Source: Sulfurimonas sp. HSL-3221
GTDB taxonomy: Bacteria; Campylobacterota; Campylobacteria; Campylobacterales; Sulfurimonadaceae
DNA length: 64,000 bases
NCBI RefSeq assembly: GCF_021044585.1
Contig: NZ_CP087998.1
Coordinates: forward strand, 496,001-560,000
Direction: 5' to 3'
Positions 9,961 to 50,824 of this stretch are shown here, piece after piece. The first letter of the stretch is position 1. Each line of letters starts with the position of its first letter. The position numbers were made by a program, and so were the translations under genes. Below the pieces are notes generated by a model. It was not told where the DNA came from, did no database searches, and saw nothing but the letters and a program-made list of their open reading frames with translations.

Positions 9961-11982
9961 ATGAAACAATCACTACGTGGCGTTCGGGGTATTATGATGT
10001 CAAGTGCCGTGGGGGCGGCACTTCTGCTTTCTGGATGTGGTTCATCAACCTCCACAACAGCGACATCAGGTACCGTAGTCGGTGCCGAGCAGGCAACGGC
10101 ACTTGTCGGCACGCTTGAATGTGTGCTTGGTACGGCTACCGGCACGCTGACCAATGTTCTTAGCGCAGCTGATCTCAGCATCCTTACTTCCATCCCGCTC
10201 GACCTTGCCTCTGTTGCCAATGCGATGGTGGAACTCGGACTGACAACAACGGGTGTGACTGTCGGCGCTATGCTGGAGACAAGCGTATCTCTTAGCAATG
10301 TACTCGATATCATCGGCCTCGTCGGCGGCACGCCGGACGTTCTGGCAATCGTTGCCTCTATTAAAGATGCACTGGACCCGGCTACACTGCTGCAGACACT
10401 GCCGCTGGGCGACCTGCTGAGCGTTGCACCGAGCCTGCTGACACAGGTCATTGGCACGCTTGTTGATACGACTGCCGGTGTCGCAGAGACAGGGATCGAT
10501 GCTCTGACCTTCCTGGATGATACGGTCATGGGTGTCGGTTACGATATCGCTGCCTGTATCCCGCAGCTTGAGCCTGTCGTTGCAACGCTCGACTGTGCGA
10601 CAAACAGCGTACTGGGCGGTGCAACACTGACAGCAGAAAACCTGAAAACACTTGCGGTTGCCCTGCCGCTCGGCGACCTGCTCGGTGCCGTTCAGAGTTT
10701 GACAGGCCTGGCGGATACCGCGACACTCTCTGACCTTCTCGCCGCTCCGCTTAGCGCAGGCGACCTCCTCGGTATCCTTGGTTCACTGACCGGTGATCCG
10801 CAATCCGTCCTTTCAGATCTGACAGGCGCACTTGATCCGTCCCAGCTGACGAACATGCTGAGCCTCGGCGACCTTATCGTTGCACCGCAGGAACTCCTCG
10901 GTACGACACTCGGCACCCTGCCGGCAACCCTGCTGACAACGACAACGGGTCTGCTCGGTACGGTCGAAGGTCTGCTTGCTCAGGTGACAGGCGACCTGAC
11001 ATCTTGTCTGGATCCGAACCTGCTGGTCGGTTCACTGACAAGTCTGCTCGGTGCGCTCCCGCTGAATGGCGGCGCGCTTCCGCTGGATCCTGCAGGGCTT
11101 CTGAGCCTGGTCAGTGCTGACACGACGATCAATGACATTATCGCTGCGGCGAAAACACTGCCGGTCCTCAACGCGCTTCCGCTCGATGAGCTGATGGCGA
11201 CGAAACTGAGCATCGCCCAGCTGATGGATATTATCAATGCACTGCCGATCCCTGCACCGGTATCTACTGTGCTGACAACAGTATTGGGTGCCGTGCCGGA
11301 TCTGAACCTGCCGGCACTTTCACTGAACGACATCCTTGCGCTGCCGGGTGAAGTTCTGCCATTCGGTATCGATCCGATGGATACAAGCATCAACGGCCTC
11401 CTGACGACATCTGTCAACATGCTGGCCCTGCTGGAATCCGTAGCGCACGGTCTGAATGCTGAAGGAACAGCCTTCCTGCTCAACGCCGGTGTTGTTATGC
11501 CTGTTGTTACAACGATCGACAAGCTCGGCGGGTATGCGATCCTCGGTGGTCTGATGACCAACGTGCCGTACCTGACGCAGACACTGCCGCTGGGTGACCT
11601 GACAGGTCTGCTTCTGAACGGTGCGACTCCGACCGATCTTGGTGATCTCAGCAACCTGGTCGGTACGATCCTGGGCAGCGGTGATCCGACCGGTGCGCTT
11701 ACAAGCATCCTGAGCACGCTGACAGGTGCATCTTCCGGTGATCTCCTCGGCCTGCTCGGCGGGGACCTGCTGGGTTCACTGACCGGTACGCTCTCGGATC
11801 TGCTCAACAGCCTTGGCGGCAACCTCCTCGGCGACCTGCTGACAACACTGACAAGCCTGCTCGGCGGAGCTGATGCCTCTGCGATTACTGACCTGCTCGG
11901 CGGCCTGACAACAGATCCGACTGCACTGCTGCAGACGCTGCTTGGCCTGCTCAACGCTCAGGGCCTTGCCCTCCCGCTCTAA
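9961..11982 (+). CDS. Large leucine/threonine/glycine-rich lipoprotein with GDLL repeats
   Basis: 673-aa predicted outer-membrane lipoprotein. The signal peptide MKQSLRGVRGIMMSSAVGAA ends in the lipobox LLSGC (Cys26). The rest is low in Lys/Arg and aromatics and is built of degenerate repeats around LPLGDLL, for example LPLGDLLSVAPSLLTQVIG, LPLGDLLGAVQSL, LSLGDLIVAPQELLG and LPLGDLTGLLLNG. Cysteine motifs (TLECVLG, TLDCATNS, DLTSCLDP) recur at the boundaries of larger ~150-170-aa units. The last 120 residues are almost pure GDLLGxL repeats. A related block occurs in both Ig-like lipoproteins downstream. The ATG at 9961 has AAGGA upstream; an earlier in-frame ATG (9907) would mask the signal. 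No known family recognised; a structural or adhesive role is an inference. Confidence 0.8.
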   Translation: MKQSLRGVRGIMMSSAVGAALLLSGCGSSTSTTATSGTVVGAEQATALVGTLECVLGTATGTLTNVLSAADLSILTSIPLDLASVANAMVELGLTTTGVTVGAMLETSVSLSNVLDIIGLVGGTPDVLAIVASIKDALDPATLLQTLPLGDLLSVAPSLLTQVIGTLVDTTAGVAETGIDALTFLDDTVMGVGYDIAACIPQLEPVVATLDCATNSVLGGATLTAENLKTLAVALPLGDLLGAVQSLTGLADTATLSDLLAAPLSAGDLLGILGSLTGDPQSVLSDLTGALDPSQLTNMLSLGDLIVAPQELLGTTLGTLPATLLTTTTGLLGTVEGLLAQVTGDLTSCLDPNLLVGSLTSLLGALPLNGGALPLDPAGLLSLVSADTTINDIIAAAKTLPVLNALPLDELMATKLSIAQLMDIINALPIPAPVSTVLTTVLGAVPDLNLPALSLNDILALPGEVLPFGIDPMDTSINGLLTTSVNMLALLESVAHGLNAEGTAFLLNAGVVMPVVTTIDKLGGYAILGGLMTNVPYLTQTLPLGDLTGLLLNGATPTDLGDLSNLVGTILGSGDPTGALTSILSTLTGASSGDLLGLLGGDLLGSLTGTLSDLLNSLGGNLLGDLLTTLTSLLGGADASAITDLLGGLTTDPTALLQTLLGLLNAQGLALPL

Positions 11983-15003: not shown

Positions 15004-16239
15004 ATGAGAAGATATTCATTGGCAGCGGCAGCGCTTTTGCTCACCACTGCGGCGTATGCTGATTTCCCGGCGAAACGCATTGCCTTCCCGGGGTTCTATA
15101 TCGGGGGCAATGTCGGTTACGCGACCGGCCGGGTAAATGAGACCGATACGGCCGAGGAAGCGTGTAACGGCGATCCGGCCTGTACCGTGATCAACTCCAC
15201 CATTGACGAGAACGCTTTCGGACTGAAGCTGTTCGGAGGTTACCTCTTTAACGACTTCTTCGCCATTGAAGGGGGCTATTTCAACCTCGGCGAGCTTTCG
15301 TTCAAACACGATACGAGTACGGGGGAGACCTATAAAGGTACCGCGAAGACGCAGGGGCTCAATGCCGACGTGGTCGGACACCTTCCGATCCTGTCCCAGC
15401 TGACCGCCTTTGCACGCCTCGGTGTGATGTATGCCGAAGTCAGCAAAGACTACTCCTACAGTGGCGGCACGCTCTATGTCAATGGCGTCGCGAAAGACAT
15501 GAGTCCCAGCCAGTGGGGTGCGGGCCTGAAAGTCGGCCTGGGCGTGCAGTATGACTTCACACCCCGCCTCGGTGTCCGCGGCGAATGGGAAGGCTACCAC
15601 ATGGAGGAGGACGCTTCCAATTCCGGTCTCGATATGAGCCTCTGGTCCGTCGGTGTCGTCTACCGCTTCGGAGAAGATCCGAACGCACCGGTCCCGCCGC
15701 CGGAGCCGGAAAAAGTCGTCGTGGTCAAAGAGGTCCCGGTCCCGGCCGAACCTGTTGTTGTCGAAAAAGTCGTCGAGAAAGAGGTCGTCAAAGAGGTGCC
15801 GTCGGAACCGGTCATCATCCGGAAGCCGGTTGAACGCGTCGTCCTGGCGACGGATGCACTCTTCGACTTCAACAAGGCTATCGTGAAACCGGAAGGTAAA
15901 GCTGCGATCAGAGACCTCGTGGTCAAACTGCAAAAAGACGACAAGCTGATCGTAACGGGCCATACGGACAGCATCGGTTCTGAGCTGTACAACCTCAAAC
16001 TGTCACAGCGCCGTGCCGACGCGGTCAAGAACGAACTGGTCATCAACGGCATCGACGCCGACCGTATCGAAACGAAGGCCAAAGGGGAGAGCGATCCCGT
16101 CGCGACGAATGCGACCGATGAGGGGCGCGCGCAGAACCGCCGCGTTGAAATCGACATCATCGCTGCGCCGAAAGAGCCGGGGGAAGAGATCACACCGCCG
16201 GCGGATGAAGTTACCCTCCCCGCAGGGGAAACGAAGTAA
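15004..16239 (+). CDS. OmpA-family protein (beta-barrel plus peptidoglycan-binding domain), copy 1
   Basis: 411-aa outer-membrane protein. Signal peptide MRRYSLAAAALLLTTAAYA; an eight-strand-type barrel from ~25 to 225 (GFYIGGNVGYATGR, LFGGYLFNDFFAIEGGYFNLGELS, LGVRGEWEGYHM, SVGVVYRFG). A C-x5-C pair in an extracellular loop (ACNGDPAC) may form a disulfide. A V/K/E/P-rich linker (KVVVVKEVPVPAEPVVVEKV) spans ~237-275. The C-terminal OmpA domain (~286-392) has GHTDSIGSELYNLKLSQRRA and NRRVEID. The ATG at 15004 gives the signal peptide and has AAGGA upstream. Paired with the Ig-like lipoprotein gene; the pair is duplicated downstream. Confidence 0.9.
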   Translation: MRRYSLAAAALLLTTAAYADFPAKRIAFPGFYIGGNVGYATGRVNETDTAEEACNGDPACTVINSTIDENAFGLKLFGGYLFNDFFAIEGGYFNLGELSFKHDTSTGETYKGTAKTQGLNADVVGHLPILSQLTAFARLGVMYAEVSKDYSYSGGTLYVNGVAKDMSPSQWGAGLKVGLGVQYDFTPRLGVRGEWEGYHMEEDASNSGLDMSLWSVGVVYRFGEDPNAPVPPPEPEKVVVVKEVPVPAEPVVVEKVVEKEVVKEVPSEPVIIRKPVERVVLATDALFDFNKAIVKPEGKAAIRDLVVKLQKDDKLIVTGHTDSIGSELYNLKLSQRRADAVKNELVINGIDADRIETKAKGESDPVATNATDEGRAQNRRVEIDIIAAPKEPGEEITPPADEVTLPAGETK

Positions 16240-16670
16240 CGACACACCTGCATTCAAGGAAGGAGCTCCCCGGAGCCTCCTTCATCCCTAGAACTCTCCG
16301 AACCTTTTAACGACAACACATCATCGCTTTCTATCCTGTTTCTTGCAATCAGCATGCTGCGTGACAGGTATGCCCGCCTCAGACATTGCTGCAAAGCATA
16401 TTTTTAATATTTGACGATAAAACATGACTTTTTTGCATAAAGTTTTATAAATAAAGAATATGTTCTTGATAATTTTTTGATAAATACACATAAAATAATG
16501 AAAAAATGTATTTTTTGATTTATATTAAGTCTCATGAAGATATGATTCATTTCGTTAGAAATGAGATGTCAGTGGGATGGAGGGGAAAAGTGTCACCTTC
16601 TCTCGCGGGAAGAGGTGAACGCTGTCGGTCAGGCGGTACGGCGTTTTTGATGAATCATAAGGAGTAATTG
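16240..16670. other. AT-rich intergenic region between the two lipoprotein/OmpA pairs
   Basis: About 430 bases with no gene. An imperfect GC-rich hairpin at 16259-16283 (GAAGGAGCTCC.../...GGAGCCTCCTTC) may end the first pair's transcript. 16390-16540 is strongly AT-rich. A perfect 7-bp hairpin (TCATTTC-GTTA-GAAATGA, 16547-16564) lies about 105 bases before the next start. A promoter for the second pair must be here, but I could not fix its boxes. Confidence 0.55.
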
Positions 16671-36173: not shown

Positions 36174-39158
36174 ATGCAGGCCAAGCTCTACGCCTACCTG
36201 AAAAAGGGTAGCCTCCCCGACGTACTGATCTGCGAAGATGCCGCCGAAGCGCAGCAGCTGCATGACCTCTGCCGATTCAAGGCGATCGAGGCCGTCGTTC
36301 TCCCCGACTTCCGCGCGACCTGGCTCGACGATCTCCGCCCCTTCAGCGAAGAGCTGAGCCAGATGGCCGAGGCGCTGCGCCGCTACTATGAAGCAGATAA
36401 AAAACCCCTTGTCATCGCCCCCTTCAAGAGCCTCCTTTTCCCGCTGCCCAAAACGAACCTCCTGCGCACGAAGCCCATCGCCTTCGGCGACCGCCTCGAC
36501 CTCTCCGGCCTCAAGACGGAGCTGCTGCACTGGGGCTATAGCTTCGTCGACCTCGTGGAGGTGGAGGGGGAGGTCTCCTTCCGCGGCGACATCATCGACG
36601 TCTTCGCCCCCGGCACGGAAAGCCCTTACCGCATCTCCCTCTTCGACGACGAGATCGAGCAGATCAAGGCCTTCGAGGTGGAGACCCAGCGCACCGTCGG
36701 CGAGGAGCTGGAGGGGTTCGAGCTGCACAGCGCCCCCTACGCCTTCGACGAGGCCGGGTACGAGCGTATCGTGAGCGCCGTTGAGGCGTCTGCCAGCGAC
36801 AGCTTCGTCAAGGACATCGACTCCCTGGGCTTCTGGTACCTGGGAGACGACGCCGAGAACTTCCTCGCGGGCAAAAAGGTCGCCTCAGTCAAACGCCTCG
36901 ACGCGATGATCGGCGAGGCCTACACCCTCAACACCCCGCAGGTAGAGGCAACGGATTTTGAATCCGTCGCGGTGCTCCCCGAGGACGACCGGGTCAAGGC
37001 CCTTGCGGTCACCGACGTCAAAACCCTGCTGGAGGTCCACCCGAACAAGAAGGTGACCATTATCGCCAGCAGCGACGCGCAGCTGAAGCAGGCGGGGATC
37101 TTCGACACGAAGGGAATGACGGTCAAACGCTCCGGCGAGATCGTCAACCTCATTACCGACACCGAGCTTATCATCTCCCTGAACAAGCCGGTGCGCAAGA
37201 AGCGCCGCCGCAAGAGCAGCCTGCTCCTCGACGACCTCAAACCGGGCGACTACGTCGTCCACGAGGAGCACGGGGTCGGGATCTTCGAGGCCATCGAACA
37301 GGCGGAGATTTTGGGTAGCGTGCGCGACTTTATCGCCATCAGGTACCAGGGCGACGAACGGGTCCTGCTGCCGGTGGAGAACCTCGACGCCATCGACCGC
37401 TACATCGCGGGCGCCGGGGCGCCGCCGGTGCTCGACCGCCTGGGCAAGGGGAGCTTCGGCCGCCTCAAGGAGAAGGTCAAGAAGCGCCTCTTCGAGATCG
37501 CCTCGGAGATCGTCAACACCGCCGCCCAGCGCGCGCTCATCAGCGCCCCGGTCATCGAGACCGATGCGAAGGAGCTGGCGGCGTTCCAGTCCCGCGCGGG
37601 CTTTGAGTACACGGAGGACCAGGCGCGCTCCATCGCCGAGATCATCGCGGAGATCGGCAGCGGCCACGTGATGGACCGGCTCCTCAGCGGGGACGTCGGC
37701 TTCGGCAAGACCGAGGTGGCAATGAACGCGATGTTCGCCGCGGCCTCCGCGGGCTACCAGTCGGCCGTCATCGTCCCGACGACCCTGCTCAGCTCCCAGC
37801 ACTTCGCCTCGCTCAAAGAGCGCTTCGCCGAGTATGACTTCCACATCGCCAAGATCGACCGCTTCGTCACCCCGAAGGTGAAGAAGGCCGTCGAGGCGGG
37901 GCTGGCCGAGGGGACCATCGACATGGTCGTCGGTACCCACGCGCTCTTCGGGACGAAGTTCGCCAAGCTGGGCCTCGTCGTTATTGACGAAGAGCACAAG
38001 TTCGGGGTGAAGCAGAAAGAGAAGCTCAAAACCCTCTATGAGAAGACGCACCTGCTCACCATGAGCGCCACGCCGATCCCGCGCAGCCTCAACCAGGCTC
38101 TCAGCTCCATCAAGACGCTCAGCACCCTCATGACCCCTCCGGGCGAACGGCAGGGGGTGCGGACCTTTGTCAAGGCCTACGACGAGAAACTCGTCAAAGA
38201 GGTCATTTTGCGCGAGCTGCGCCGGGGCGGGCAGGTCTTTTACGTCTACAACTCCATCGACCATATGCCCATAAAGCTCGGCGAGCTCAAGGCGATCCTC
38301 CCCGACCTGCGCATTTTGATGCTCCACTCGCAGGTCGGCGCGGTCGAGACGGAGAAGGAGCTGCTGAAGTTCCAGGACGGCGAGTACGACCTGATGCTGG
38401 CGACCTCTATTATCGAGTCGGGCATCCACATGCCGCGGGTCAACACGATGATCATCGACGGGGCCGACCGCTTCGGCATCGCGGACCTGCATCAGCTCCG
38501 TGGCCGCGTCGGCCGGGGCCACACGGAGGGGTTCGCCTACTTCATCGTCGAGGACAAGGAGCTCATTACCGAGGAGGCGAAGAAGCGCCTCGTCGCCCTG
38601 GAGTCCAACTCCTTCCTCGGCAGCGGCTCCGTGCTCGCCTACCATGACCTGGAAATCCGGGGCGGGGGGAACCTCGTGGGCGACGCGCAGAGCGGGCACA
38701 TCAAGAACATCGGCTACTCTCTTTACCTGCGGATGCTCGAGGACGCCATCAAGGAGCTGAGCAACAAGAAAGAGACCCCCAAGGCGAAGGTGGACCTCAA
38801 GCTCGCCGTCAGCGCCTACATCAGCGACGAGCTCGTCGCCGAAGACCGTCTGCGCCTGGAGCTCTACCGCCGCCTCAGCCTCTGCGAGACCCCGACGGAG
38901 GTCTACGAGATCGAGGAGGAGGTCACGGAGCGCTTCGGACGCCCGGACGGCCCGACCAAGCAGTTCTTCGAGCTGATGGTCATCAAACTGATGGGGCTGG
39001 AGAAACACATCAAGATGCTCAGCTCCTACGGCCAGAACATTACGGTAGAGTACCTGAGCGGCGCTAAAGAGTACGTCACCGCCGACAGCAAAGACGACGA
39101 CGACATCATCAAGGCCGTGCTGCACTACCTGCGCACGGCGAAGCCGAAGGTGCTGTAA
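36174..39158 (+). CDS. mfd: Transcription-repair coupling factor Mfd
   Basis: Translocase that removes RNA polymerase stalled at lesions and recruits UvrA. 994 aa, close to the H. pylori length and shorter than E. coli (1148). UvrB-like N-terminus (~1-330), RNA-polymerase-interacting domain (DLKPGDYVVHEEHGVGIFEA, ~352), helicase lobe 1 with Walker A GDVGFGKTEVAM (~504) and DEEHKFG (~605), lobe 2 with the ESGIHMPRVNT and QLRGRVGRG motifs (~745-780), TRG motif (SVLAYHDLEIRGGGNLVGDA, ~820) and a C-terminal domain. A diverged copy of its last 30 codons lies at 41959-42048. Confidence 0.97.
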   Translation: MQAKLYAYLKKGSLPDVLICEDAAEAQQLHDLCRFKAIEAVVLPDFRATWLDDLRPFSEELSQMAEALRRYYEADKKPLVIAPFKSLLFPLPKTNLLRTKPIAFGDRLDLSGLKTELLHWGYSFVDLVEVEGEVSFRGDIIDVFAPGTESPYRISLFDDEIEQIKAFEVETQRTVGEELEGFELHSAPYAFDEAGYERIVSAVEASASDSFVKDIDSLGFWYLGDDAENFLAGKKVASVKRLDAMIGEAYTLNTPQVEATDFESVAVLPEDDRVKALAVTDVKTLLEVHPNKKVTIIASSDAQLKQAGIFDTKGMTVKRSGEIVNLITDTELIISLNKPVRKKRRRKSSLLLDDLKPGDYVVHEEHGVGIFEAIEQAEILGSVRDFIAIRYQGDERVLLPVENLDAIDRYIAGAGAPPVLDRLGKGSFGRLKEKVKKRLFEIASEIVNTAAQRALISAPVIETDAKELAAFQSRAGFEYTEDQARSIAEIIAEIGSGHVMDRLLSGDVGFGKTEVAMNAMFAAASAGYQSAVIVPTTLLSSQHFASLKERFAEYDFHIAKIDRFVTPKVKKAVEAGLAEGTIDMVVGTHALFGTKFAKLGLVVIDEEHKFGVKQKEKLKTLYEKTHLLTMSATPIPRSLNQALSSIKTLSTLMTPPGERQGVRTFVKAYDEKLVKEVILRELRRGGQVFYVYNSIDHMPIKLGELKAILPDLRILMLHSQVGAVETEKELLKFQDGEYDLMLATSIIESGIHMPRVNTMIIDGADRFGIADLHQLRGRVGRGHTEGFAYFIVEDKELITEEAKKRLVALESNSFLGSGSVLAYHDLEIRGGGNLVGDAQSGHIKNIGYSLYLRMLEDAIKELSNKKETPKAKVDLKLAVSAYISDELVAEDRLRLELYRRLSLCETPTEVYEIEEEVTERFGRPDGPTKQFFELMVIKLMGLEKHIKMLSSYGQNITVEYLSGAKEYVTADSKDDDDIIKAVLHYLRTAKPKVL

Positions 39159-40037: not shown

Positions 40038-41771
40038 TTACGACGAACAGGTGACGTGGGAGATACCGGCGATCTCGAAGTATTCGGTGGGCTTTTTCCT
40101 GTAGTACTTCGCCGCGACTGCTTCGGACTGCTCGGCGTAGGGGTCGGTCATAACCGCCTGCAGCTCCTTGATAAGCGTATAGTCCCCGTCGGCGGCCTGC
40201 TGATAGGCCGGGACGAGGAACCACTCCCTCAACGTGTACTTGGGGTTGACGGCTTTCATTTGGCGTGAGAGCGCTTCGCGCGATTCCGGCGAAGCGGCGT
40301 TGATGTCGTCGGGGTTGGTCGCCTGTACGACACTCTTCCACTTCTCCAGCCATTCGCTCCAGCGGTTCAGCAGCGCCGCATCTTTGACCCCGTCACCGTA
40401 AAAGCTCTTCGTCAGCGGGGCGATATCTTCGGGCACCGATGAGAGTTCGCGGAAGAAGATGGTGTAATCCACCCCCGTCTCGAGCATCAGCGTGATGAGT
40501 TCATTGAACAGCGGTGCATCCAGCTTACGCAGTCCCAGCTTGGATGCCCACATGGGGATCATTTTCCCCTGCATCGCTCGTGCGAATCTGAGCGTCAGCA
40601 TGTCCAGCTCGTTCACGGCCTTTTCATCGGCAGCCAGCAGCGGCTTCAGCGCGCTGCAGAACATGGCAAAGTTGGTCTCTGCCGCCTGGGGCTGGTTCAG
40701 GAAGGAGAAGTGGTCCCCTCCGCCCGTCCATGGCTGGTAGCGCGGGTCGAACATCTCGATGAACCCGAAGGGGCCGTAATCGAGGGTGAAGCCGCCGGCG
40801 GCAGTGTTGTCGCTGTTGAAGTTGCCCTGGCAGTAGCCCACGCGTATCCACTCTGCCACCAGCGTGGTGAGACGGTCGCGGAACGCCGTTGCCAGCAGGA
40901 GCACTTTGTCCCGGAGGGGCAGGGTGGCGTCGATGGTGTCGCTGTATTCGCGCTCACAGAGGTGCAAAACGATCTGCTCGAGCTCCTCCAATGCTTTGGG
41001 GTGCTCGTTCTTGCGCGCCCGCCGGCCGAAAAGCTCGACCTGGCCCACCCGGATAAAAGAGGGGGCGACCCGCGTCGTGATGGCCACGGCCTCCTCGAGC
41101 ATGACCTCGGGGTTTCGCGAGTAGGAGCCGTTGTTGAACCACGGCCGCGCGACCGTCTCCGTCTGTGAGGTGTAGAGGCTCAGCGAGCGTGACGTCTTGA
41201 CGCCCAGGGCGTGCATGTGCTCCTGCGCCAGAAACTCGCGGATGCTGGAACGCAGGACGGCGCGGCCGTCGGCACCGCGGCAGTAGGGTGTTCTGCCGCC
41301 GCCTTTGAGCTGCATCTCCCAGCGCTGCCCTTTTATGACCGCTTCAAGGATGGAAACCGCGCGCCCGTCGCCGTAGCCGTTGCCCGTACGGAAGGGGCAC
41401 TGCTCGTAGTACTCGGTCCCGTAGATGGAAAGCGCGTACCCCGTCGCCCAGCCCCGGCGGCGCAGCGGCTCGGGGAGCTGCGAGCTGTCGCCTGTAAACA
41501 TCCGCATAAACTCCTCCGAGGTCGCCAGCGCGTCGCTAAAGCCCAGTTCGCGGAAAAAGGTCTCGCTGTGCGCGATGTACACGGGGGTTTCTATGGGCGT
41601 AGGGTTCACAGGCACATAATGCCCGCTGAAGACCTGCCGCGGCGCGTGGTCAACGCCGTCCGCCGTCGCCTCGGGGTCGGATGTCAACGTGTCCATGAGC
41701 GAATAATCCGCCAGCGCCGCGAGATCGTCAAGGCTCTTTACCGCTGTAGGGTTTTCAAATGTTGCTTTCAT
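40038..41771 (-). CDS. selO: SelO/YdiU-family protein adenylyltransferase
   Basis: 577-aa pseudokinase-fold enzyme that AMPylates proteins (Ser/Thr/Tyr), linked to redox homeostasis. Motifs: [20 protein letters not shown] and [20 protein letters not shown] (~150-190), and [25 protein letters not shown] (~311-335), holding the catalytic/metal residues. The C-terminus HVTCSS has Cys third from the end, where eukaryotic SelO has selenocysteine, so redox control by this Cys is likely. ATG at 41771 has AAAGGAAA upstream. Complete. Confidence 0.93.
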
Positions 41772-41958: not shown

Positions 41959-42048
41959 AAAGAGTATGTCACGGCAGATAGCAAAGACGACGACATCATT
42001 AAGGCTATCCTGCACTGTCTTAGGACGGTGAAGCCGAAGGTGTTGTGA
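41959..42048 (+). pseudogene. Diverged duplicate of the last ~30 codons of mfd
   Basis: Translates as KEYVTADSKDDDIIKAILHC then LRTVKPKVL and a stop, against KEYVTADSKDDDDIIKAVLH YLRTAKPKVL at the end of intact mfd (one Asp codon missing, four substitutions). Most DNA differences fall in third codon positions (TAT/TAC, ACG/ACC, GCA/GCC, GAT/GAC, ATT/ATC, GCT/GCC), so the piece diverged as a working gene in another lineage before it arrived here. Upstream of the Lys codon similarity ends. Marks the left edge of the TIR-caspase module. Confidence 0.85.
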
Positions 42049-42104: not shown

Positions 42105-42236
42105 TTATTTACCTTTTGACTTGTTTGAGTCACCACCACCCATTGATTCAGAAGGTTTTTTATCAAGTCCACGTTGACCATAGCCAGTTCCTGGCTTAAC
42201 AATTGGCTTCGTAGGCTTCTCTTTCTTATCTGCCAT
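42105..42236 (-). CDS. Possible internal translation product: 43-aa tail of the membrane protein
   Basis: Within the membrane-protein frame, ATG at 42236 (MADKKEKPTKPIVKPGTGYG...) is preceded by GGAGAGAA, with GGAG 8 bases upstream. The start falls a few residues after the last helix, so a soluble copy of the hydrophilic tail could be made. Comparable internal starts occur in some toxin/defence genes; here it is only a sequence-based possibility. Confidence 0.25.
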   Translation of the reverse strand: MADKKEKPTKPIVKPGTGYGQRGLDKKPSESMGGGDSNKSKGK

Positions 42237-42788
42237 GATATTCTCTCCATTTTGCTGAATTGTAATCATTGTACTTGCAGCTAGTATTAGTAATAAGAGC
42301 AATGATAGAATCGTAGTAACAACAGCTTTTCTAATTAATCTAGCTCTACGTATGATATTAATTCCATTATATCGAACCGCACGTTCTGCACCATGCATCA
42401 TCGTTAAAAGACCTTGAGTTTTTGTCCAAGAATTATCAGGAATTTTGGACATTAGAAAAATTCGTTGATCTACTCCATAATTAGTAAACTTTCCAAGTCG
42501 CATTCCAAAAAGAGCTATTAAAATACTCGTAAGCGACATAACAAAAAATGGAATTACAATCCAAAGTAATGCGCCATTTTCTGTAACTTTGAACGAGATG
42601 CCTATTAAAACAACATTGAGCCAAAGGATGGTTTTGATTATATTAAATTGATGTGGAATGGAGGAACCTAGTAAAAGGTCCAATTCTTTTCGAATAGCAT
42701 CGTAATGTAATCTAAGATTGTGCTCATAGCTCTCGATATGTTGTTTATCTAATTCTTTTTTGAGCTTCTGTTCATCGCGGAATTTCAT
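42105..42788 (-). CDS. Three-helix membrane protein of a TIR-caspase module (possible effector or regulator)
   Basis: 227 aa. Charged N-terminal helix (1-40), transmembrane hairpin (~50-67 and ~73-96), a ~55-residue cytosolic loop, a third helix (~154-175) and a 50-residue hydrophilic Lys/Gly/Ser tail (KKEKPTKPIVKPGTGYGQRG ... SKGK). The plan resembles SLATT or PycTM membrane effectors of signalling-based phage defence; I cannot assign it firmly. Third gene of the AT-rich operon, 43 bases after the caspase gene. A good Shine-Dalgarno and ATG inside it could also make the tail alone. Not part of the two-gene TIR-caspase system I know of. Confidence 0.75.
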   Translation of the reverse strand: MKFRDEQKLKKELDKQHIESYEHNLRLHYDAIRKELDLLLGSSIPHQFNIIKTILWLNVVLIGISFKVTENGALLWIVIPFFVMSLTSILIALFGMRLGKFTNYGVDQRIFLMSKIPDNSWTKTQGLLTMMHGAERAVRYNGINIIRRARLIRKAVVTTILSLLLLLILAASTMITIQQNGENIMADKKEKPTKPIVKPGTGYGQRGLDKKPSESMGGGDSNKSKGK

Positions 42789-42831
42789 TGTGGCAAATAC
42801 TTTCTTTCACTTGCATACCAAAAAATCATAT

Positions 42832-43791
42832 TTATATTCTGTTATTATTGACAAGATTCCAGTAATGGACACCGAGTGCCGTCAATTTGCAACCTGTCGA
42901 ATGCATTGCTGCATAGTACATATGTTCTTCTTTCACAGGAACGACTAAATTAATACGATTATATTTTTGAAGAATTCTAAACTTTTCAATGTTTTCATCA
43001 TCCGGATTGTCACTATCAGGTTCAAAACTAGGATCTAAAGCAAATTCAACTCCTGGTTCATCAAATAACTCAACAATTTTTTTGAGATCTGTTAATGCGA
43101 TTGGTGGTTGTACTTTTCTCAGAGTGGTGAAGGTTTTTACATTGGTTTTAAATATTGGACGTTGTTCCCACGGACCAAGTGACTGATCAATGTGCGCGTA
43201 AATACTGCCAGGCGTTATATCTCCAACCAAGTTTGAAGCACTTCCGTTTAAAGCATCAACTAGTAAAGTTGTAAAGACTCCAGATCCATTTTTTTCTTCA
43301 GCATACTGAGTACTGCTTGATGCCGTTAAAATGGTAAGACCCTCTTTCAATAAAGCGCTGTTTCCTGTAGATGCTGGAGTTCCTGCGATGCCTGAATGAC
43401 AACTATCTAAAATTATGATCTTGTTTTTAGCTGGTGAGTCATTAGCTATAGTCAATAAGTTGTCAAGTGAAAAGCCATCGTCTCCACGCGTACATTCAGA
43501 AGTAACAAGGTAACCACCAGTATTCTCAATATATCCATGACCCGCAAAATAAAAAAGTGCGATATCATTATCGTCTTTGAAAAGTTCTTCCACACTATCT
43601 TTTAATTTAGCTCGACTAATTGCATTTGTTGGGTTAGATGCAGTTTCATGTCGAGCAGAAAAATTTAATGATCCATCACTATGTCTTTCTAAAATACTTT
43701 TGACTGCATATGAGTCATTGACGCAACCAAAAAGTGATGAAAGATTTTCATAGTAGTCAATTCCTACAATTAATGCTTTTCTCATATTCAA
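42832..43791 (-). CDS. Caspase-like (peptidase C14) protease, type IV Thoeris-like effector
   Basis: 319 aa. Caspase fold at ~1-190 with the His loop IALFYFAGHGYIEN (His85) and Cys loop IIILDSCHSGIAG (Cys131). A C-terminal domain (~225-319; LKKIVELFDEPGVEFALDP, ILQKYNRINLVVPVKEEHMYY, LTALGVHYWNLVNNNRI) could be the ligand-sensing part. Next to a TIR gene this matches type IV Thoeris (recalled from 2025 work): the TIR makes N7-cADPR, which activates the caspase to digest host proteins and stop phage. ATG overlaps the TIR stop by four bases. No signal peptide, so cytosolic. Codon use is AT-rich, unlike neighbouring core genes. Confidence 0.88.
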   Translation of the reverse strand: MNMRKALIVGIDYYENLSSLFGCVNDSYAVKSILERHSDGSLNFSARHETASNPTNAISRAKLKDSVEELFKDDNDIALFYFAGHGYIENTGGYLVTSECTRGDDGFSLDNLLTIANDSPAKNKIIILDSCHSGIAGTPASTGNSALLKEGLTILTASSSTQYAEEKNGSGVFTTLLVDALNGSASNLVGDITPGSIYAHIDQSLGPWEQRPIFKTNVKTFTTLRKVQPPIALTDLKKIVELFDEPGVEFALDPSFEPDSDNPDDENIEKFRILQKYNRINLVVPVKEEHMYYAAMHSTGCKLTALGVHYWNLVNNNRI

Positions 43792-44189
43792 CCCCAGTCA
43801 CGAATTGCTTTTGCAATTGAGCTAGATTGCCATTTTACAATTACATCCGCGTTATCTTTGACAATTGTCGAAGTCTTTTCTGCACCCCATGGTTCGATAG
43901 CAATTATTGGCTTTCTATATGCGACAGCAATGTCAATTTCTTTGTTTATCCACTTGCTATATGTTGAATATACTCCAGCAAGGATCAATATGCAACTAGT
44001 TCCTTTGATTTTGGCATCAATCGCTTCTCTGAGTTGCTTGTCCGTGCCATTTGTATGAATTGGGTCATGTCTTGGGACGGAGTGATCGTAAAAACTAATC
44101 CCTTGATTCGCAATCATTTGAACAACCTTGTCATATGCGTCACTATAGGCCCATGAATGACTGATAAACAATCTATACGTTTTTGACAT
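43788..44189 (-). CDS. ThsB-like TIR-domain protein (MTH538/DUF1863 type)
   Basis: 133-aa stand-alone TIR-like domain: RLFISHSWAYSDAYDKVVQM (~6-25), DHSVPRHDPIHTNGTDKQLR (~35-54), IDAKIKGTSCILILAGVYST (~57-76) and SKWINKEIDIAVAYRKPIIAIEPWG (~78-102). Glu84 in the WINKE segment is the expected catalytic residue for NAD processing in ThsB-type proteins. Likely senses phage and makes a cyclic ADP-ribose signal for the caspase encoded next to it. First gene of the operon; AAGGAAAA precedes the ATG. AT-rich, apparently horizontally acquired. Confidence 0.88.
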   Translation of the reverse strand: MSKTYRLFISHSWAYSDAYDKVVQMIANQGISFYDHSVPRHDPIHTNGTDKQLREAIDAKIKGTSCILILAGVYSTYSKWINKEIDIAVAYRKPIIAIEPWGAEKTSTIVKDNADVIVKWQSSSIAKAIRDWG

Positions 44190-44339
44190 GACTTTTCCTT
44201 TTTTACCTACTATTCATTAGTGCATATTCTATGTAAAACAACCTTTGATCATGAAAAAAAATCAAACTGTTGGTATGTGATACATGGTGATATCAACGCA
44301 AGCAGCCGGATTGACCCGCAAAGCGATGCAGTGCCGATT

Positions 44340-44432
44340 ATGAAAAATCTCACAGTAGCAATGATCGGTGACGTTGTCGGGCGGCCGGGGCGGTCGATGA
44401 TAAAACAGCACCTGCTGCGGCTCAAGATATAG
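44340..44432 (+). pseudogene. Duplicate of the first ~28 codons of the YmdB-family gene, copy A
   Basis: Reads MKNLTVAMIGDVVGRPGRSM then IKQHLLRLKI and stop. From the ACAGTAGCAATG stretch it matches the start of the intact gene at 50006 in 71 of 75 bases; three of the four changes are third-position. Similarity ends within a few bases of where copy B ends. It lies 151 bases upstream of the divergently oriented TIR gene and marks the right edge of the TIR-caspase module. Confidence 0.88.
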
Positions 44433-44448
44433 CGGTATCTCAAGTCGG

Positions 44449-44949
44449 TTACTGCTCCGGCATTATCCTGTCGTTCGCGTCGACCTGCTTCGTCTTTAGC
44501 AGCGCGGCACGCTCATTGTCCACCTCAAAAAGCTTGTAACGGATATCCGGCCCCGGAATGGGGATGAATCCGTAGGGAACAAAGGTGACCCCTTCAAATA
44601 CAGGGTAGGTCTCAAAGAAATTCGAACCGTTCACCTCTGCCGTGAAAGCAAGGCTTTCCAGGTGCGTGAAATAGGGGGAGGATGAATCGGAAACGCCGAG
44701 CTCGTGCGTTCCCGGCGGGATAGGAAAGGTGATGCGCTCTCCGCCGTGCAGATAAAAGGCAAAGGTACCGTCCACCATGATGCCGACACTATGCACCGAG
44801 AGGATGAGGTTCGATGATTTTGGGTAGCAAATAGTCACCGCGGCGCCGTCTCCTGTTTCGTCCAGCAGACGCTTGGCCATCGGCGACAGCGTTGGACTGC
44901 ACCCTTGCAACAACAGAAGCGATATCACGGCGGCAGTCACTGTTTTCAT
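44449..44949 (-). CDS. DUF2846-like lipoprotein
   Basis: 166 aa. Signal peptide MKTVTAAVISLLLLQGC with Cys17 as the lipid-modified residue. The mature part is a small beta-rich domain (AAVTICYPKSSNLILSVHSV, VDGTFAFYLHGGERITFPIP, PGTHELGVS), the pattern of DUF2846: a small domain with a hydrophobic VDG strand and a PGxH turn. Function unknown. It lies 31 bases after the RDD-ankyrin gene on the same strand and is probably co-transcribed with it. Its 3' end abuts YmdB-head copy A. Confidence 0.75.
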   Translation of the reverse strand: MKTVTAAVISLLLLQGCSPTLSPMAKRLLDETGDGAAVTICYPKSSNLILSVHSVGIMVDGTFAFYLHGGERITFPIPPGTHELGVSDSSSPYFTHLESLAFTAEVNGSNFFETYPVFEGVTFVPYGFIPIPGPDIRYKLFEVDNERAALLKTKQVDANDRIMPEQ

Positions 44950-44980
44950 ACTAAGAGTGAGTATAGCCAGTTTGGATCGA

Positions 44981-46714
44981 TCACGGGTATTTAGCGATCA
45001 GTTCCTGCATACGCTCAAGATTTTTCCCCTTGCAAGACGCTTGTATGCGGGTCAATGTGTCTCCGCCGAATTTGTCTTTGAGAGCAGGGTCGGCTCCACT
45101 GGACAGAAGTAATTCGACAAGTGCAAAGTTCCTACATTTCTTGGCGGCAATTGTCAGTGCCGTTGAGCCTCTAAGATATTGATAATTCACATCGTAACCG
45201 TGTTCCAGGAACATCTTGATGATCGGAATAGATCGGTCTCCATCGGTGACCGCGACATCAAAGGGAGTCATCCTGTGCAAATCCGCGTACATGTCTGCAC
45301 CGTTGAGTAGTAGTTTTTTTACACTCTGTTCTTTGCGCAGTCGGACGGCATAAAACAGCGGTGTAAAGCTGTTGCCGTTGCGTACCTCAAGAATGGAACG
45401 GTCGCGAAGCAGTTCATCCAATACCTTTTCTTGATCGTTGGCAATGACGTAAAAAATGGAAGGTCCTCGTTTGAGAGAACGATCGTAGCGCAAGCGTGCC
45501 AACATCTTTTTGCGGGCTTCTTTTTTTCTGATAAGACGTTCTTCGTCATCTAGTTTAGCCTCCAGCGCTTTTTGTTCTTGCAGCAGTATCAGCTCCGGAT
45601 GGTGTTCCTTGAAGGTTTCATACCATCGTTTATCTTCGTCTTCGAGAAAGAGCTGATGTTCGAATGATTCGAAATATTTTTTGGCAAAGCTGTCATAGAG
45701 GATTTCAACATTGACGCTGTCATCGCACGGGCTATGGAGGCTCCGCGCTGAAAGTCCCGTAATATCTCTCTCGATCTCGTTGATCAAGTTCGTGTCGACG
45801 ACATAAAAGCGGCTGCTTGAGTACGCTTCCTGCTCCTGGGCGAGATCAATTTTATCATTCGCGACATAGGCGTTTCGCGCATTTTTGTAGAAGGAGCGGC
45901 CTTCACCGGTACTTTCCGGATCGTGCAGTTTTTGGAGACGGTCGATACAGTTCTGGGCGAGTTCCGATTTGATGTCATTGGCAAAAATGTCATATTCGTC
46001 TTCGGCATCGATGTAGCGCGGGACATAGACGTTCAGCGCATCGGCATAGAAGCGGATACGAGCATCGCCATAGTCGTTTGTGGGATAGGTCCGTTGGTAT
46101 GATTGATCGTATAGCGCCTGTGCTTGTTGAGCCGCTCGCCACATGACGCTGGCAAAGAGCATGTAGTAGCCTGTGATGATCAGTAAGCCCAGGATGGCGA
46201 CAGTGCGCAAAAGTCTTCTGAAAGTGCGTAGCGGCGGAGCACTGCTCTCAATCGTATCGAGGACGACAGTAAGGGCGATCCGGTCATGCAAGGACCGTTT
46301 GTCCCGACTCAGAATTATCAGCAGTACCGGCAGGAGCGAGAGGCTAAGAAACAGGAGGATTGACGGGTTGCCGTGCGTAAGCTCAGAGACTTTGAGTGCA
46401 GCGGACACGTAAAGGAAATATCCCAGTACGATTGTTTCACGAATGGCCAATGTTCGAAATGTCAGTGGCTCGGAATTATCCCTCTCCAGGGTCAGGCCGA
46501 ATAGTTTTTTCCCAAGGGTGCCCCGCAGGGGAGAAAGCGGGAGAAATACGCGGTAAAGCCAAAAGAAACCTATGAGGGCGTAGGGAAAGAGTGATACATA
46601 CGACTTCGGCAGAAGTGGCAGAAAGAGTACGATGACCAGGCTTACCAGAAAGATGTCGGAGAGGAATGCGACAATCCTCGTGAGTGCGGTTGTAATAGAA
46701 ATATTTTTAAACAT
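44981..46714 (-). CDS. RDD-domain membrane protein with C-terminal ankyrin repeats
   Basis: 577 aa. N-terminal RDD-type region (~1-160) with several helices and the RGTLGKKLFGLTLERD motif; a further helix at ~172-192; a charged, helical, probably extracytoplasmic region (~195-425, with an EAKLDDEERLIRKKEARKKM coiled coil); then four ankyrin-like repeats (~428-570: NGNSFTPLFYAVRLRKEQSV, DLHRMTPFDVAVTDGD, LRGSTALTIAAKKCRNFALV). The architecture suggests a membrane scaffold binding protein partners; role unknown. It forms a module with the lipoprotein gene, between YmdB-head copies A and B. Confidence 0.78.
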   Translation of the reverse strand: MFKNISITTALTRIVAFLSDIFLVSLVIVLFLPLLPKSYVSLFPYALIGFFWLYRVFLPLSPLRGTLGKKLFGLTLERDNSEPLTFRTLAIRETIVLGYFLYVSAALKVSELTHGNPSILLFLSLSLLPVLLIILSRDKRSLHDRIALTVVLDTIESSAPPLRTFRRLLRTVAILGLLIITGYYMLFASVMWRAAQQAQALYDQSYQRTYPTNDYGDARIRFYADALNVYVPRYIDAEDEYDIFANDIKSELAQNCIDRLQKLHDPESTGEGRSFYKNARNAYVANDKIDLAQEQEAYSSSRFYVVDTNLINEIERDITGLSARSLHSPCDDSVNVEILYDSFAKKYFESFEHQLFLEDEDKRWYETFKEHHPELILLQEQKALEAKLDDEERLIRKKEARKKMLARLRYDRSLKRGPSIFYVIANDQEKVLDELLRDRSILEVRNGNSFTPLFYAVRLRKEQSVKKLLLNGADMYADLHRMTPFDVAVTDGDRSIPIIKMFLEHGYDVNYQYLRGSTALTIAAKKCRNFALVELLLSSGADPALKDKFGGDTLTRIQASCKGKNLERMQELIAKYP

Positions 46715-46845
46715 AAAAAAATTATATTGTTTTTATCATAAAAAACATTTATCGAATCTTTTGAAATCAGGGAATCGCGCAGGCGTATCCTGCAGGGAAA
46801 GCCAAACAACAGCTTTTTCAGTCCGATACAGCTACATTGCTACCC

Positions 46846-46935
46846 ATGAATAGGTTGAAAGTAGCAATGATCGGTGACGTCGTCGGGCGGCCGGGGCGGT
46901 TGATGATAAAACAGCACCTGCCGCGGCTACTGTAA
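46846..46935 (+). pseudogene. Duplicate of the first ~27 codons of the YmdB-family gene, copy B
   Basis: Reads MNRLKVAMIGDVVGRPGRLM then IKQHLPRLL and stop. From GTAGCAATG it matches the intact gene in 63 of 68 bases. It shares three differences with copy A (GGG, ATA and AAA codons where the intact gene has GGT, ATC and AAG), so both copies come from one donor allele. Similarity ends at CGGCT, within four bases of the copy A break. Confidence 0.88.
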
Positions 46936-46970: not shown

Positions 46971-49820
46971 CTATTTTGCCTCCAGCTGCCACAACGCAAT
47001 CTCCCTGCCGATCGTGGCAATATGATTTTCGTCTATGAAGATGGCGCCTCTGATGTCCCCGCCGGTGAGAACCTCATACTGGACCTTGCTGCCCAGTTTC
47101 CATAGAAATACGCCAGATTGGCTTGACGCCATAAGATACCTGTGGTCTTTGCTCATTTCGAGGTGCTTGCACTGCATATAAAAATCGGCGTCAAGGGTCT
47201 CGACGATCGATTTTTTGTTCACATCCCAAAAACGGATGTTTTGCCCGTTGCAGACCATCAAATGATCAGAGTTCCTCGGATCGTGGGCGATGGCACCGAT
47301 ATCGCGGACCTGTTTGTCTTCGATGGTGTCCGAGTAGGTGAATTTCATATTTCCCGTACCACTTCCCTTTTTCTGCCAACGCTCCACATGCCCGTTGCTG
47401 CTGCCGATGTAAATCGTCGTACCATCCGGCGATTCCCCGACAGCGCTGATCCTCGGTGTAAAATATTTCTTCTCCTTTTCAATGAATTTCGGAGTGATCT
47501 CTATGATATTTTCATTCTCCGTATTGAAAAAATAGATGCTTTTGCCTGCCCCGGCCACCAGGGTTTTATTGTCTGACAAAAAATGCATGAGGTTCTTGGC
47601 ACCTTTGGGCAGACCGTCAAGTGTTTTCCGAAGTTTGTTTCCCTGAATATCCCAAAGGTATATTTTGTCCCTGCTCCCAACTGCCAGCGTTTTGCCGTCG
47701 GGTGACATCACGGGTTGGAAACTGTAAGCCATGTCCCGGGGGAGGGCTTTGGGAGGAAGCTTCCGTTCTTTGTCAAATATTCTGGCGTCCTGACCGCTGA
47801 CAAAAAAACTGCTGCCTCTATCGGAGTGTGCGAAACCGTATGGAGCATGGCGTGTCTCCATGATCACGTCGGCTTTTTGGGCCACGTCAAAAGCGCTGGC
47901 AATGGGTTGGGGGCCGTATTGGTACTCTTTGGTCGTCCGTTCTTTGACAAACGAAACGCTGTTTTCCTCCTGTTCGCCGCACAGGCGCTCTACATGCTTG
48001 CCGACCATATGGTTGATCCGGAGCTTGTGGTTGTTGAGGAGGATGTAGTCGATGCCTTGATACCTTTTCCTGTCAAAATGGATGGCGTCATTCTTGTTCA
48101 TAGTCACAAAACCGCTGCAGAGGTTTCCGCCGGGAACGCCTTCGTATGTCAGCTTCATGCCGCCCTGGGGCATCCCCTCGATACGGACGCTGCTGCCGAA
48201 AGCCGGAATGATCTTGTTCTCCTGATCGATCCATTTGCTGTCGATAATCCCGGCTTCAACGGCTTTACTGTTGGTCAGGTCGTGAGTAGGTCTGTTTTCA
48301 AAGACCTTGGCGTAATACTTGAGGATGCTGTCTTTCTGACTGATCCCGGCTCCCATGGCAGCTCTTGTGAAACCGGGCTTTTGTGCCGCCGTCTTCCGGA
48401 CCGTCGTGGCGGCTTTGGGTTGTAAAAGCGCCGTCTGGTTGCAGTCGAAGAAGTGCTTGAGTTCTTCACTCTCTCCCTCCTGCTTCATCTTCATACCGAT
48501 GGTTGTCGCCCACCAGAACATCGGCTGTACCACATAGGTGCCGAACGCCTCTTTGAGCCCCTCCTGTTCGATGTCAGTTTTCAGCAACTGAAGAAAAGGC
48601 GTTTCGTCTTTGATGCAGTCTTGCAGGCGGAGTACCTTCAGGCCCGTGCCGATATCGCCGTTCTGCTTCCCTATCGCCGCTCTGATCTCGTTGAGGTACG
48701 CCTGCATCTTCGTCTTGGTTCCGGGGGCTCTGCCGTAGCTGTTGATGTACGCCTGGGATGTGGCGAATACGGGCATCTTGTTATGTTTGGGCGCCGGTTT
48801 TTCAATAGCGACGTCGACGGGAGCAAGCGTCATCGCCGTGATATTGTTCTCACAGTATGCGCTGATCTCGTTGGGCAGAAAGTCGGTTTTCAGTGGGTAA
48901 TAGTTTGAATAGGAAGTAATTGAAGATACCAGCTTGCGCTTTTCGTTCAGTCTGTCACCGCTCTTTTGATACAGATCCAGCCGCCGCTGGCACTGTTCGA
49001 GATAGACGATCTCCTGCTGCATCGCGTGCCGCTTTTTGGGACGGTCGTAATTGCGGAGTATCTCCTCTTTGAGATAGGCAAGTCTGAACAGCATCTCCTT
49101 GTTTTTGCGGGTAGTCTCCATATGGTCGATACTTTCATAAACATTACGCGGTATCGTATTTTCAGGCAGCTGCTTGAGCGATGTGAGGTCATAATCGCGT
49201 TTGTCGTCACCTTTCGGTTCGACGCTGTATACCGGCTTGTTCGCTAAAACACGGGCGCGGAGTTTGGCGTCATACTCGCGCATCCGTTTTGACGACTCCG
49301 ATGATCCGTCCGTGTGAATGCGTCCCTCCACCCTGCGCAGTTTTTTCAGTACTTTTCGATCGCTTTCTGTCGGGGTGATGATCGCTTCGAGAACATTGTC
49401 AAATGAATAATGGAGCTTGCAGGCACTCCCAATGTCGCTCACAATATGCCAAAGCCTCCAGTAGTCTAGATCGCTCTTTTCAAGATCTTCCATACTTTCG
49501 ACATGTTGCATCCGGTATTTGAGTGCAAGTGTGTACGTATAGAGCATCGTCTTGTCGTCTTTGTTGAAGCAGTCGAATGATTCTACGTATCGGGTCGCCT
49601 GATAGGGAAGCGTGTTGGCGAGATATAGTCCCAATGCGTTTGTAGTTTCTTTATGCGTTTTTTCTGCATGTTCTTCCGGCTTTGCCTCGGGTAGGGAATC
49701 CAGGCACTTCACCAGCGCCTGCTTCGAGATTTTTTCAGCGCGGTACGCCTCAAAGCATGTCTCGCGCTCCGCACTGTGGAGCAAAGCTGTCAGACAGAGT
49801 AATAGCAAAGTTTTTTTCAT
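46971..49820 (-). CDS. Large exported protein with type IVb pilin-like module and C-terminal WD40-like propeller
   Basis: 949 aa. Signal peptide MKKTLLLLCLTALLHSAE; ATG at 49820 chosen because AGGAAA precedes it. Residues ~20-480 are helical, with no family recognised. Residues ~490-580 look like the globular part of a type IVb pilin (PilS-like): DLTNSKAVEAGIIDSKWID, IIPAFGSSVRIEG, KLTYEGVPGGNLCSGF. From ~660 to the end there are repeated beta blades (AYSFQPVMSPDGKTLAVGSR, ISAVGESPDGTTIYIGSSNG, HLEMSKDHRYLMASSQSG) of a WD40-like propeller. Probably periplasmic or surface-exposed. It lies between YmdB-head copy B and the intact gene. Function unknown. Confidence 0.75.
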   Translation of the reverse strand: MKKTLLLLCLTALLHSAERETCFEAYRAEKISKQALVKCLDSLPEAKPEEHAEKTHKETTNALGLYLANTLPYQATRYVESFDCFNKDDKTMLYTYTLALKYRMQHVESMEDLEKSDLDYWRLWHIVSDIGSACKLHYSFDNVLEAIITPTESDRKVLKKLRRVEGRIHTDGSSESSKRMREYDAKLRARVLANKPVYSVEPKGDDKRDYDLTSLKQLPENTIPRNVYESIDHMETTRKNKEMLFRLAYLKEEILRNYDRPKKRHAMQQEIVYLEQCQRRLDLYQKSGDRLNEKRKLVSSITSYSNYYPLKTDFLPNEISAYCENNITAMTLAPVDVAIEKPAPKHNKMPVFATSQAYINSYGRAPGTKTKMQAYLNEIRAAIGKQNGDIGTGLKVLRLQDCIKDETPFLQLLKTDIEQEGLKEAFGTYVVQPMFWWATTIGMKMKQEGESEELKHFFDCNQTALLQPKAATTVRKTAAQKPGFTRAAMGAGISQKDSILKYYAKVFENRPTHDLTNSKAVEAGIIDSKWIDQENKIIPAFGSSVRIEGMPQGGMKLTYEGVPGGNLCSGFVTMNKNDAIHFDRKRYQGIDYILLNNHKLRINHMVGKHVERLCGEQEENSVSFVKERTTKEYQYGPQPIASAFDVAQKADVIMETRHAPYGFAHSDRGSSFFVSGQDARIFDKERKLPPKALPRDMAYSFQPVMSPDGKTLAVGSRDKIYLWDIQGNKLRKTLDGLPKGAKNLMHFLSDNKTLVAGAGKSIYFFNTENENIIEITPKFIEKEKKYFTPRISAVGESPDGTTIYIGSSNGHVERWQKKGSGTGNMKFTYSDTIEDKQVRDIGAIAHDPRNSDHLMVCNGQNIRFWDVNKKSIVETLDADFYMQCKHLEMSKDHRYLMASSQSGVFLWKLGSKVQYEVLTGGDIRGAIFIDENHIATIGREIALWQLEAK

Positions 49821-49992
49821 GATTGTTTCCTGGAATTTCATCGGTGGTCATATTGTAGATTAAATTTGGTTAAAAAAGATTTTTCAGTTTGCCGCGCGTC
49901 ATGAACCCTTCTCCTTACATGGAAAAGCAGAAGCCCCTCTGTTACTTTCGTTTCCCAGCCGGCACTGCGCGTTCGGTTTAAAACGTTCAGGG

Positions 49993-49998: not shown

Positions 49999-50005
49999 AG
50001 CGTTT

Positions 50006-50824
50006 ATGAAAGCAATTACAGTAGCAATGATCGGTGACGTTGTCGGGCGGCCGGGTCGGTCGATGATCAAGCAGCACCTGCCGCGGCTCAAGAAGGAGCA
50101 CGGCATCGACTTCGTCGTGGCCAACTACGAGAACGCCAGCCACGGCTTCGGGCTGACCGCCAAGAACGCCGACGAGCTCTTCGGCGCAGGCGTGGACGTT
50201 ATGACCGGGGGCAACCACAGCTTTGACAAGAAAGAGATCATCCCCCTTTTTGAAAAGCTGCCGCTGTTGCGTCCGCACAACTACCCCGAGGCGATGCCGG
50301 GCAAGGGCACGGGCATGTACGAGGTGAACGGCGTCAAAGTCGGTGTGCTCAACGTCATGGGCTACTACGCCATGCCGATGGTCGACAACCCCTTCATCTG
50401 CGCGCAGAAGAGCGTCGAGGCGCTGCGGCGCGAGGGGGCCGAAGTCATCCTTGTCGATATGCACGCCGAGGCGACGAGCGAGAAAAGGGCGCTGCTCATG
50501 ATGCTAAAGGGCCACGTCAGCGCCATCATCGGCACCCATACCCACGTGGCGACGGACGATTTGCAGATCGACGGCGGCACGGGCTACGTCACGGACCTGG
50601 GCCTCAGCGGCTGCCGCGACAACGTCATCGGGATGGACCCCAAGATCCCGCTGCAGCGCTTCCTGACAGGCCTTCCCGGCCACTTCAACGTCCCGGAAAA
50701 ATGTAAAAAGATTCTGCAGACGGCCGTGTTCGAGCTGGACGAGAAGGGGCGCTGCGTGAGCGCCAGGAAGATCAAGACCTTCGACGACGGGCGCGAGATC
50801 GTCACCGACGCCTGGGAAGTTTAG
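50006..50824 (+). CDS. YmdB-family metallophosphoesterase (TIGR00282)
   Basis: 272 aa. Calcineurin-like dimetal site: IGDVVGRPGRSM (~9-20), VVANYENASHGFG (~37-49), TGGNHSFDKKE (~67-77), and IGTHTHVATDDLQI (~176-189). Family members (YmdB of Bacillus) are phosphodiesterases acting on cyclic nucleotides or other phosphate esters; the substrate here is unknown. Complete; its last four bases overlap the convergent alcohol dehydrogenase gene. Its first ~27 codons are duplicated twice upstream. Confidence 0.9.
   Translation: MKAITVAMIGDVVGRPGRSMIKQHLPRLKKEHGIDFVVANYENASHGFGLTAKNADELFGAGVDVMTGGNHSFDKKEIIPLFEKLPLLRPHNYPEAMPGKGTGMYEVNGVKVGVLNVMGYYAMPMVDNPFICAQKSVEALRREGAEVILVDMHAEATSEKRALLMMLKGHVSAIIGTHTHVATDDLQIDGGTGYVTDLGLSGCRDNVIGMDPKIPLQRFLTGLPGHFNVPEKCKKILQTAVFELDEKGRCVSARKIKTFDDGREIVTDAWEV

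Follow-up and report, generated by a model that had tools for sequence, protein, structure and literature searches.

Displaced 5' ends of ymdB in a variable defence slot: probable scars of cargo acquisition by one homologous crossover and one non-homologous join

Two displaced 5' ends of the gene ymdB, here called heads A and B, mark the boundaries between three blocks of cargo genes in the window, which is the whole stretch of 64,000 nucleotides analysed here (positions 496001-560000 of G000, a complete genome of 2.52 Mb). The cargo probably entered through a combination of two joins, one of them a homologous crossover within the flanking gene and the other non-homologous, and the scars look like a by-product of general recombination, not like the trace of a dedicated insertion site. 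The features of the region are as follows, in window coordinates.

36174-39158, plus strand: putative mfd, a 994-aa helicase named from its translation, with its tail duplicated at 41959-42046
40038-41771, minus strand: selO, located between mfd and the mfd tail remnant
41959-42046, plus strand: displaced mfd tail, on the far side of selO
42105-44189, minus strand: cassette 1 in the variable slot, with a 227-aa protein, a caspase (PF00656) and a ThsB-type TIR protein (PF08937)
44340-44432, plus strand: displaced head A, with a long-type start (MKNLTVAM) and the genus-typical ymdB leader upstream
44449-46714, minus strand: cassette 2, with a 166-aa lipoprotein-like ORF (44449-44949) and a 577-aa RDD-ankyrin membrane protein (44981-46714)
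46846-46935, plus strand: displaced head B, with a short-type start (TTG AAA GTA GCA ATG) and a leader of another kind
46971-49841, minus strand: cassette 3, a 956-aa protein with a WD40-like propeller at its C-terminus
50006-50824, plus strand: intact ymdB, a YmdB metallophosphoesterase of 272 aa (Pfam PF13277, E=1e-91; NCBIfam TIGR00282, 254 bits, slightly below the cut-off of that profile)

The order from selO onwards is thus the TIR and caspase cassette, head A, the lipoprotein-like and RDD-ankyrin cassette, head B, the WD40 cassette and intact ymdB. All three blocks between selO and ymdB are on the minus strand, and the heads are stacked in direct orientation with the cargo in between, head A at the boundary of blocks one and two and head B at that of blocks two and three. 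Judging from its predicted domains, cassette 1 is a set of Thoeris-like defence genes. The caspase and ThsB-TIR pair, taken together with the 227-aa protein, resembles a Thoeris system with a caspase effector.

In a self-BLAST search, positions 44335-44427 of head A aligned with 50001-50093 (93 bp, 89% identity) and positions 46860-46928 of head B with 50020-50088 (69 bp, 93% identity), with E-values of about 1e-22 to 1e-28. The two heads are 96% identical to each other, and no further copies of the ymdB head were found in the 2.52-Mb genome. At such values the resemblance to ymdB is evidently not due to chance, and the two fragments reported in the initial annotation were confirmed at their places. 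That annotation had also noted three third-position differences from the intact gene that A and B have in common. All three were confirmed (50056 T>G, 50068 C>A and 50071 G>A). At position 50056, T is confined to the intact ymdB of G000 and of its relative G007, and every other head compared within the genus has G, A or C; on this comparison the intact gene is evidently the variant and the state in A and B the norm of the genus, a possibility that the initial annotation had itself allowed for and that is borne out in part, at this one position. The alleles 50068A and 50071A are both missing from head A of G007 and from head A of G006, so A and B do not owe them to shared descent; they are likely to have arisen in G000 through local conversion or as parallel changes.

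The breaks were said to lie within four bases of each other, which was taken to suggest a specific crossover site about 90 bases into the gene. Head A is least decayed in G006, where its match to the gene extends as far as 50095, or 50099 if one mismatch is allowed, while the match of head B ends at 50088, which places the two breaks 7-11 bases apart. In G002, the remnant runs on to about 50252. The breakpoints at ymdB (about 50088 for B, 50095-50099 for A and about 50252 for G002) are thus scattered to some extent, and a fixed attachment core was rejected on these grounds. By our own estimate, two of three independent breaks falling within about 10 bp of each other over about 250 bp is not remarkable; the distance of only 7-11 bp between the breaks of A and B in G000 nevertheless counts against the explanation that we prefer. 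The new stop codon after head A is missing in G006 (AAG AAG CAG CGG TAT CTC) and therefore most likely arose later by mutation.

Three start types were identified at ymdB. The long type (MKNLTVAM or similar) is that of head A, of the G002 remnant and of intact ymdB in G001 and G006; the short TTG type is that of head B, of intact ymdB in G002 and of G003; and the type MKAITVAM is that of intact ymdB in G000 and G007. Remnant and intact gene belong to different start types and have different leaders in G000, G007 and G002, and the current ymdB head is therefore not a copy of the displaced one; the inner and outer copies are not both copies of the resident target in these three genomes. The intact head of G002 differs from that of G000 at 12 positions within 39 bp (50021-50059) and then matches it exactly for 31 bp, to 50090, which makes it a mosaic. 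The earlier suggestion of elements that supply a new head is thus correct in that a new head was brought each time, but an integrase-type element or a specific crossover site is not supported.

We compared the slot with its counterparts in related genomes, which identify it as a variable, defence-rich site. G007 has head A, block two, head B and block three as in G000, with block one replaced by genes for SIR2, adenosine-deaminase, Ham1 and metallo-beta-lactamase-like proteins (L041 4087-7612), possibly a defence system. In G006, a Septu pair (PtuA and PtuB) is followed by head A, block two and the intact ymdB, and head B is absent. The slot of G001 contains TIR, patatin and AAA-TIR genes and no ymdB remnant; that of G002 contains the 236-bp remnant, an HTH antitoxin-like gene and the intact ymdB. 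In G003, a methyltransferase gene stands alone between mfd and ymdB, and selO is absent there. Cassette 2 is common to G000, G006 and G007, and cassette 3 is within the genus common to G000 and G007 only. Across the ymdB stack, between about 45.1 and 50.8 kb, G000 and G007 are for the most part 97-100% identical, as compared to 94-96% just outside on the right, which argues that the stacks also move by flanking homology. No genome was found that equals G000 in all but an empty ymdB site, and the events at ymdB were therefore inferred from these relatives.

The other border of the slot carries the mirror image of the ymdB heads. The mfd tail copy at 41959-42046 is 80% identical over 91 bp to 39066-39156, with a trace also present in G001 and a shorter one in G006. 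Since this copy is located just beyond selO, it appears that selO also arrived with a displaced gene end. At a second, unrelated locus in G000, the following feature was identified.

L160 13575-15602, minus strand: ABC-F gene

Its promoter region and first codons are repeated at L160 18121-18180, with a gene for a 745-aa lipoprotein-like protein between the copies, and the break is about 12 bp into the gene. The corresponding site in G001 is empty: the flanks overlap there in one 59-bp copy, as compared to two around the 2.5-kb insert in G000, so that cargo and an extra target copy can be set directly against an empty site. On the left-hand side of the insert G000 and G001 are 87-93% identical (about 91%); at the repeat the identity rises to 98-100% and stays there for about 5.4 kb on the right-hand side. 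This step fits an insertion combined with a homologous tract, although it could instead reflect transfer from a G000-like donor into G001. Both this step and the mosaic head of G002 would fit a homologous exchange on one side, and the transfer may have gone in either direction. Since mfd bears such a scar at its tail and the ABC-F gene at its head, the type is not tied to ymdB.

With its 59-bp stretch present once in G001 and twice in G000, the ABC-F locus looks exactly as expected from a true insertion with long target duplication, in which some transposition-like process would leave a copy of the resident target at either end of the cargo. Such insertions were named in Helicobacter pylori by Nobusato et al. 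(2000; via PMC1643837, PMC3031569 and PMC4978471), a member of the same phylum, and as far as these accounts describe them, the cargo lies between long, variable direct repeats when compared to an empty site, as it does here (59, 69, 122 and 236 bp), and often consists of restriction-modification genes (PMC1643837, PMC3031569). The cargo here is Thoeris-like, Septu, SIR2 and others, and several events are stacked on one gene. We consider this explanation unlikely: the two sides of the ymdB cargo differ in start codon and leader, so that the inner head was not copied from the outer, the head in G002 is a mosaic, and a homologous tract abuts the ABC-F insert. Because the heads differ, an inner copy derived from the donor is favoured over a long target duplication. 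Old tandem or segmental duplications of ymdB that were eroded by deletion, unrelated to the cargo, can also yield truncated copies in direct orientation. We find this scarcely credible here, as the remnants adjoin cargo that varies between strains, the head types differ, and the empty ABC-F site shows duplication and insertion together.

No tyrosine-recombinase domain (PF00589, searched in 8 genomes) was identified near the slot, the nearest one in G000 being at 595.7 kb as compared to 546.0 kb for ymdB; this domain is 49 kb off, and G001, G006 and G007 have equivalents of it in comparable positions. No recombinase was found among the cassette proteins searched against Pfam, and the check for tyrosine integrases proposed earlier thus gave none near the slot. 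A family of recombinase-driven elements that integrate about 90 bases into ymdB at a fixed site, by means of a recombinase since lost or supplied in trans, would account for the new head each time and for the closeness of the breaks of A and B. We regard it as very unlikely in view of the G002 break, the same scar type at mfd and the ABC-F gene, the lack of genes common to the cassettes and the distance of the nearest recombinase domain, and because the distant cassette-3 homologues in other genera are located on contigs other than the one that bears ymdB. It is a long shot that defence cassettes with a head of their own land preferentially in the first 100 bases or so of ymdB, beside the defence slot, through an unrecognised trans-acting recombination system. 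SXT-type elements at prfC integrate at the 5' end of the gene and supply a new head. As in the slot studied here, a new promoter and head are supplied and the old head is displaced, but here this happens without an integrase and without a fixed break, and unrelated genes are struck.

The geometry, the head types and the scatter of the breaks would all follow from the proposed combination of one homologous crossover and one non-homologous join, with each displaced end recording a single acquisition. The chromosomal DNA that came in would carry cargo genes beside the ymdB 5' end (leader and head) of another lineage, the homologous crossover would fall inside ymdB, and the other join would be non-homologous. 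The resident leader and the first 70-235 bp of the gene would be cut off and stranded on the far side of the cargo, and the current ymdB would consist of the newcomer's promoter and start codon followed by the resident body. Repeats of such events would have stacked the cassettes, leaving A and B, and the same process at the other border would have stranded the mfd tail beside selO. The same product would arise whether the donor fragment formed a circle that integrated through a single crossover or stayed linear and was joined homologously at one end and illegitimately at the other. Insertions without a working promoter and start would break ymdB and be lost, which would explain why the intact gene always touches the cargo. 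We infer natural transformation as the entry route, as well as the order of events, the donor lineages and the rate; DNA uptake is plausible, since genes with ComEC and DprA domains are present in G000. The donor molecules were not found, and searches for ymdB heads on plasmids or phages gave only distant YmdB genes of less than 60% identity.

Products of this kind are known from E. coli, where most integrants of a non-replicating plasmid had partial duplications of the target gene (PMC3240628). After single-crossover integration, a PCR product indicative of a partial duplication was obtained from 56 of 60 clones in the class examined, and the duplications were 109-950 bp long in 14 sequenced clones (PMC3240628). 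Single-crossover integration and homology-facilitated illegitimate recombination share with the events proposed here one homologous and one non-homologous join and a partial target duplication; those systems consist of laboratory constructs, as compared to natural cargo reconstructed from the genome sequences here. Defence hotspots bounded by core genes (for example PMC10250203) resemble the slot in having variable defence cargo between conserved genes, and differ in that the border scars here record single insertions. Defence genes turn over fast, and the slot between selO and ymdB would be a site where they do so without a recombinase. From the displaced heads and tails at its borders, the number of insertions and the side of entry may be read, so that cargo gain without a recombinase can be counted from genome sequence alone. 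Since a newcomer would replace the promoter and start of a conserved gene, such gains would also exchange the promoter of a neighbouring gene as a by-product.

Detectable scars appear to be rare, as one further clear case, the ABC-F locus, was found in 380 kb of G000 sampled outside the window, and no convincing case in 800 kb of three sister genomes. One candidate from the latter sample was discarded, a 70-bp repeat in G001 (L210, 9732-9801 and 13001-13070). The whole segment is common to G000 and G006, and the repeat sits before two transcription units, upstream of seemingly urea-carboxylase-type genes; it is probably a duplicated riboswitch-type leader. With one filter applied over 1.73 Mb, all seven pairs of gene-end remnants (four in G000, two in the Campylobacterota-type loci L076 and L095 and one elsewhere, L138) had the remnant on the outer side of the cargo. 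A set of 28 ymdB loci, of which 27 belong to genomes with Campylobacterota-type names, contained one tail remnant (L095) and no remnant of a head. In L095, from another Campylobacterales genome, the ymdB tail and 55 bp downstream of it (10722-10874) are repeated with 92% identity about 5.4 kb further downstream (16185-16337), and a sensor, an aldehyde dehydrogenase and other genes are located between the repeats. A weak, degenerate match to the ymdB head with five stops (E=0.003) was observed in another genus (G217, L172 11537-11665), about 450 bp upstream of the intact ymdB. Repeat families of about 320 bp, mostly non-coding, were also observed in G006 (L223 11539-19043) and in G000 (L165 11038-14327).
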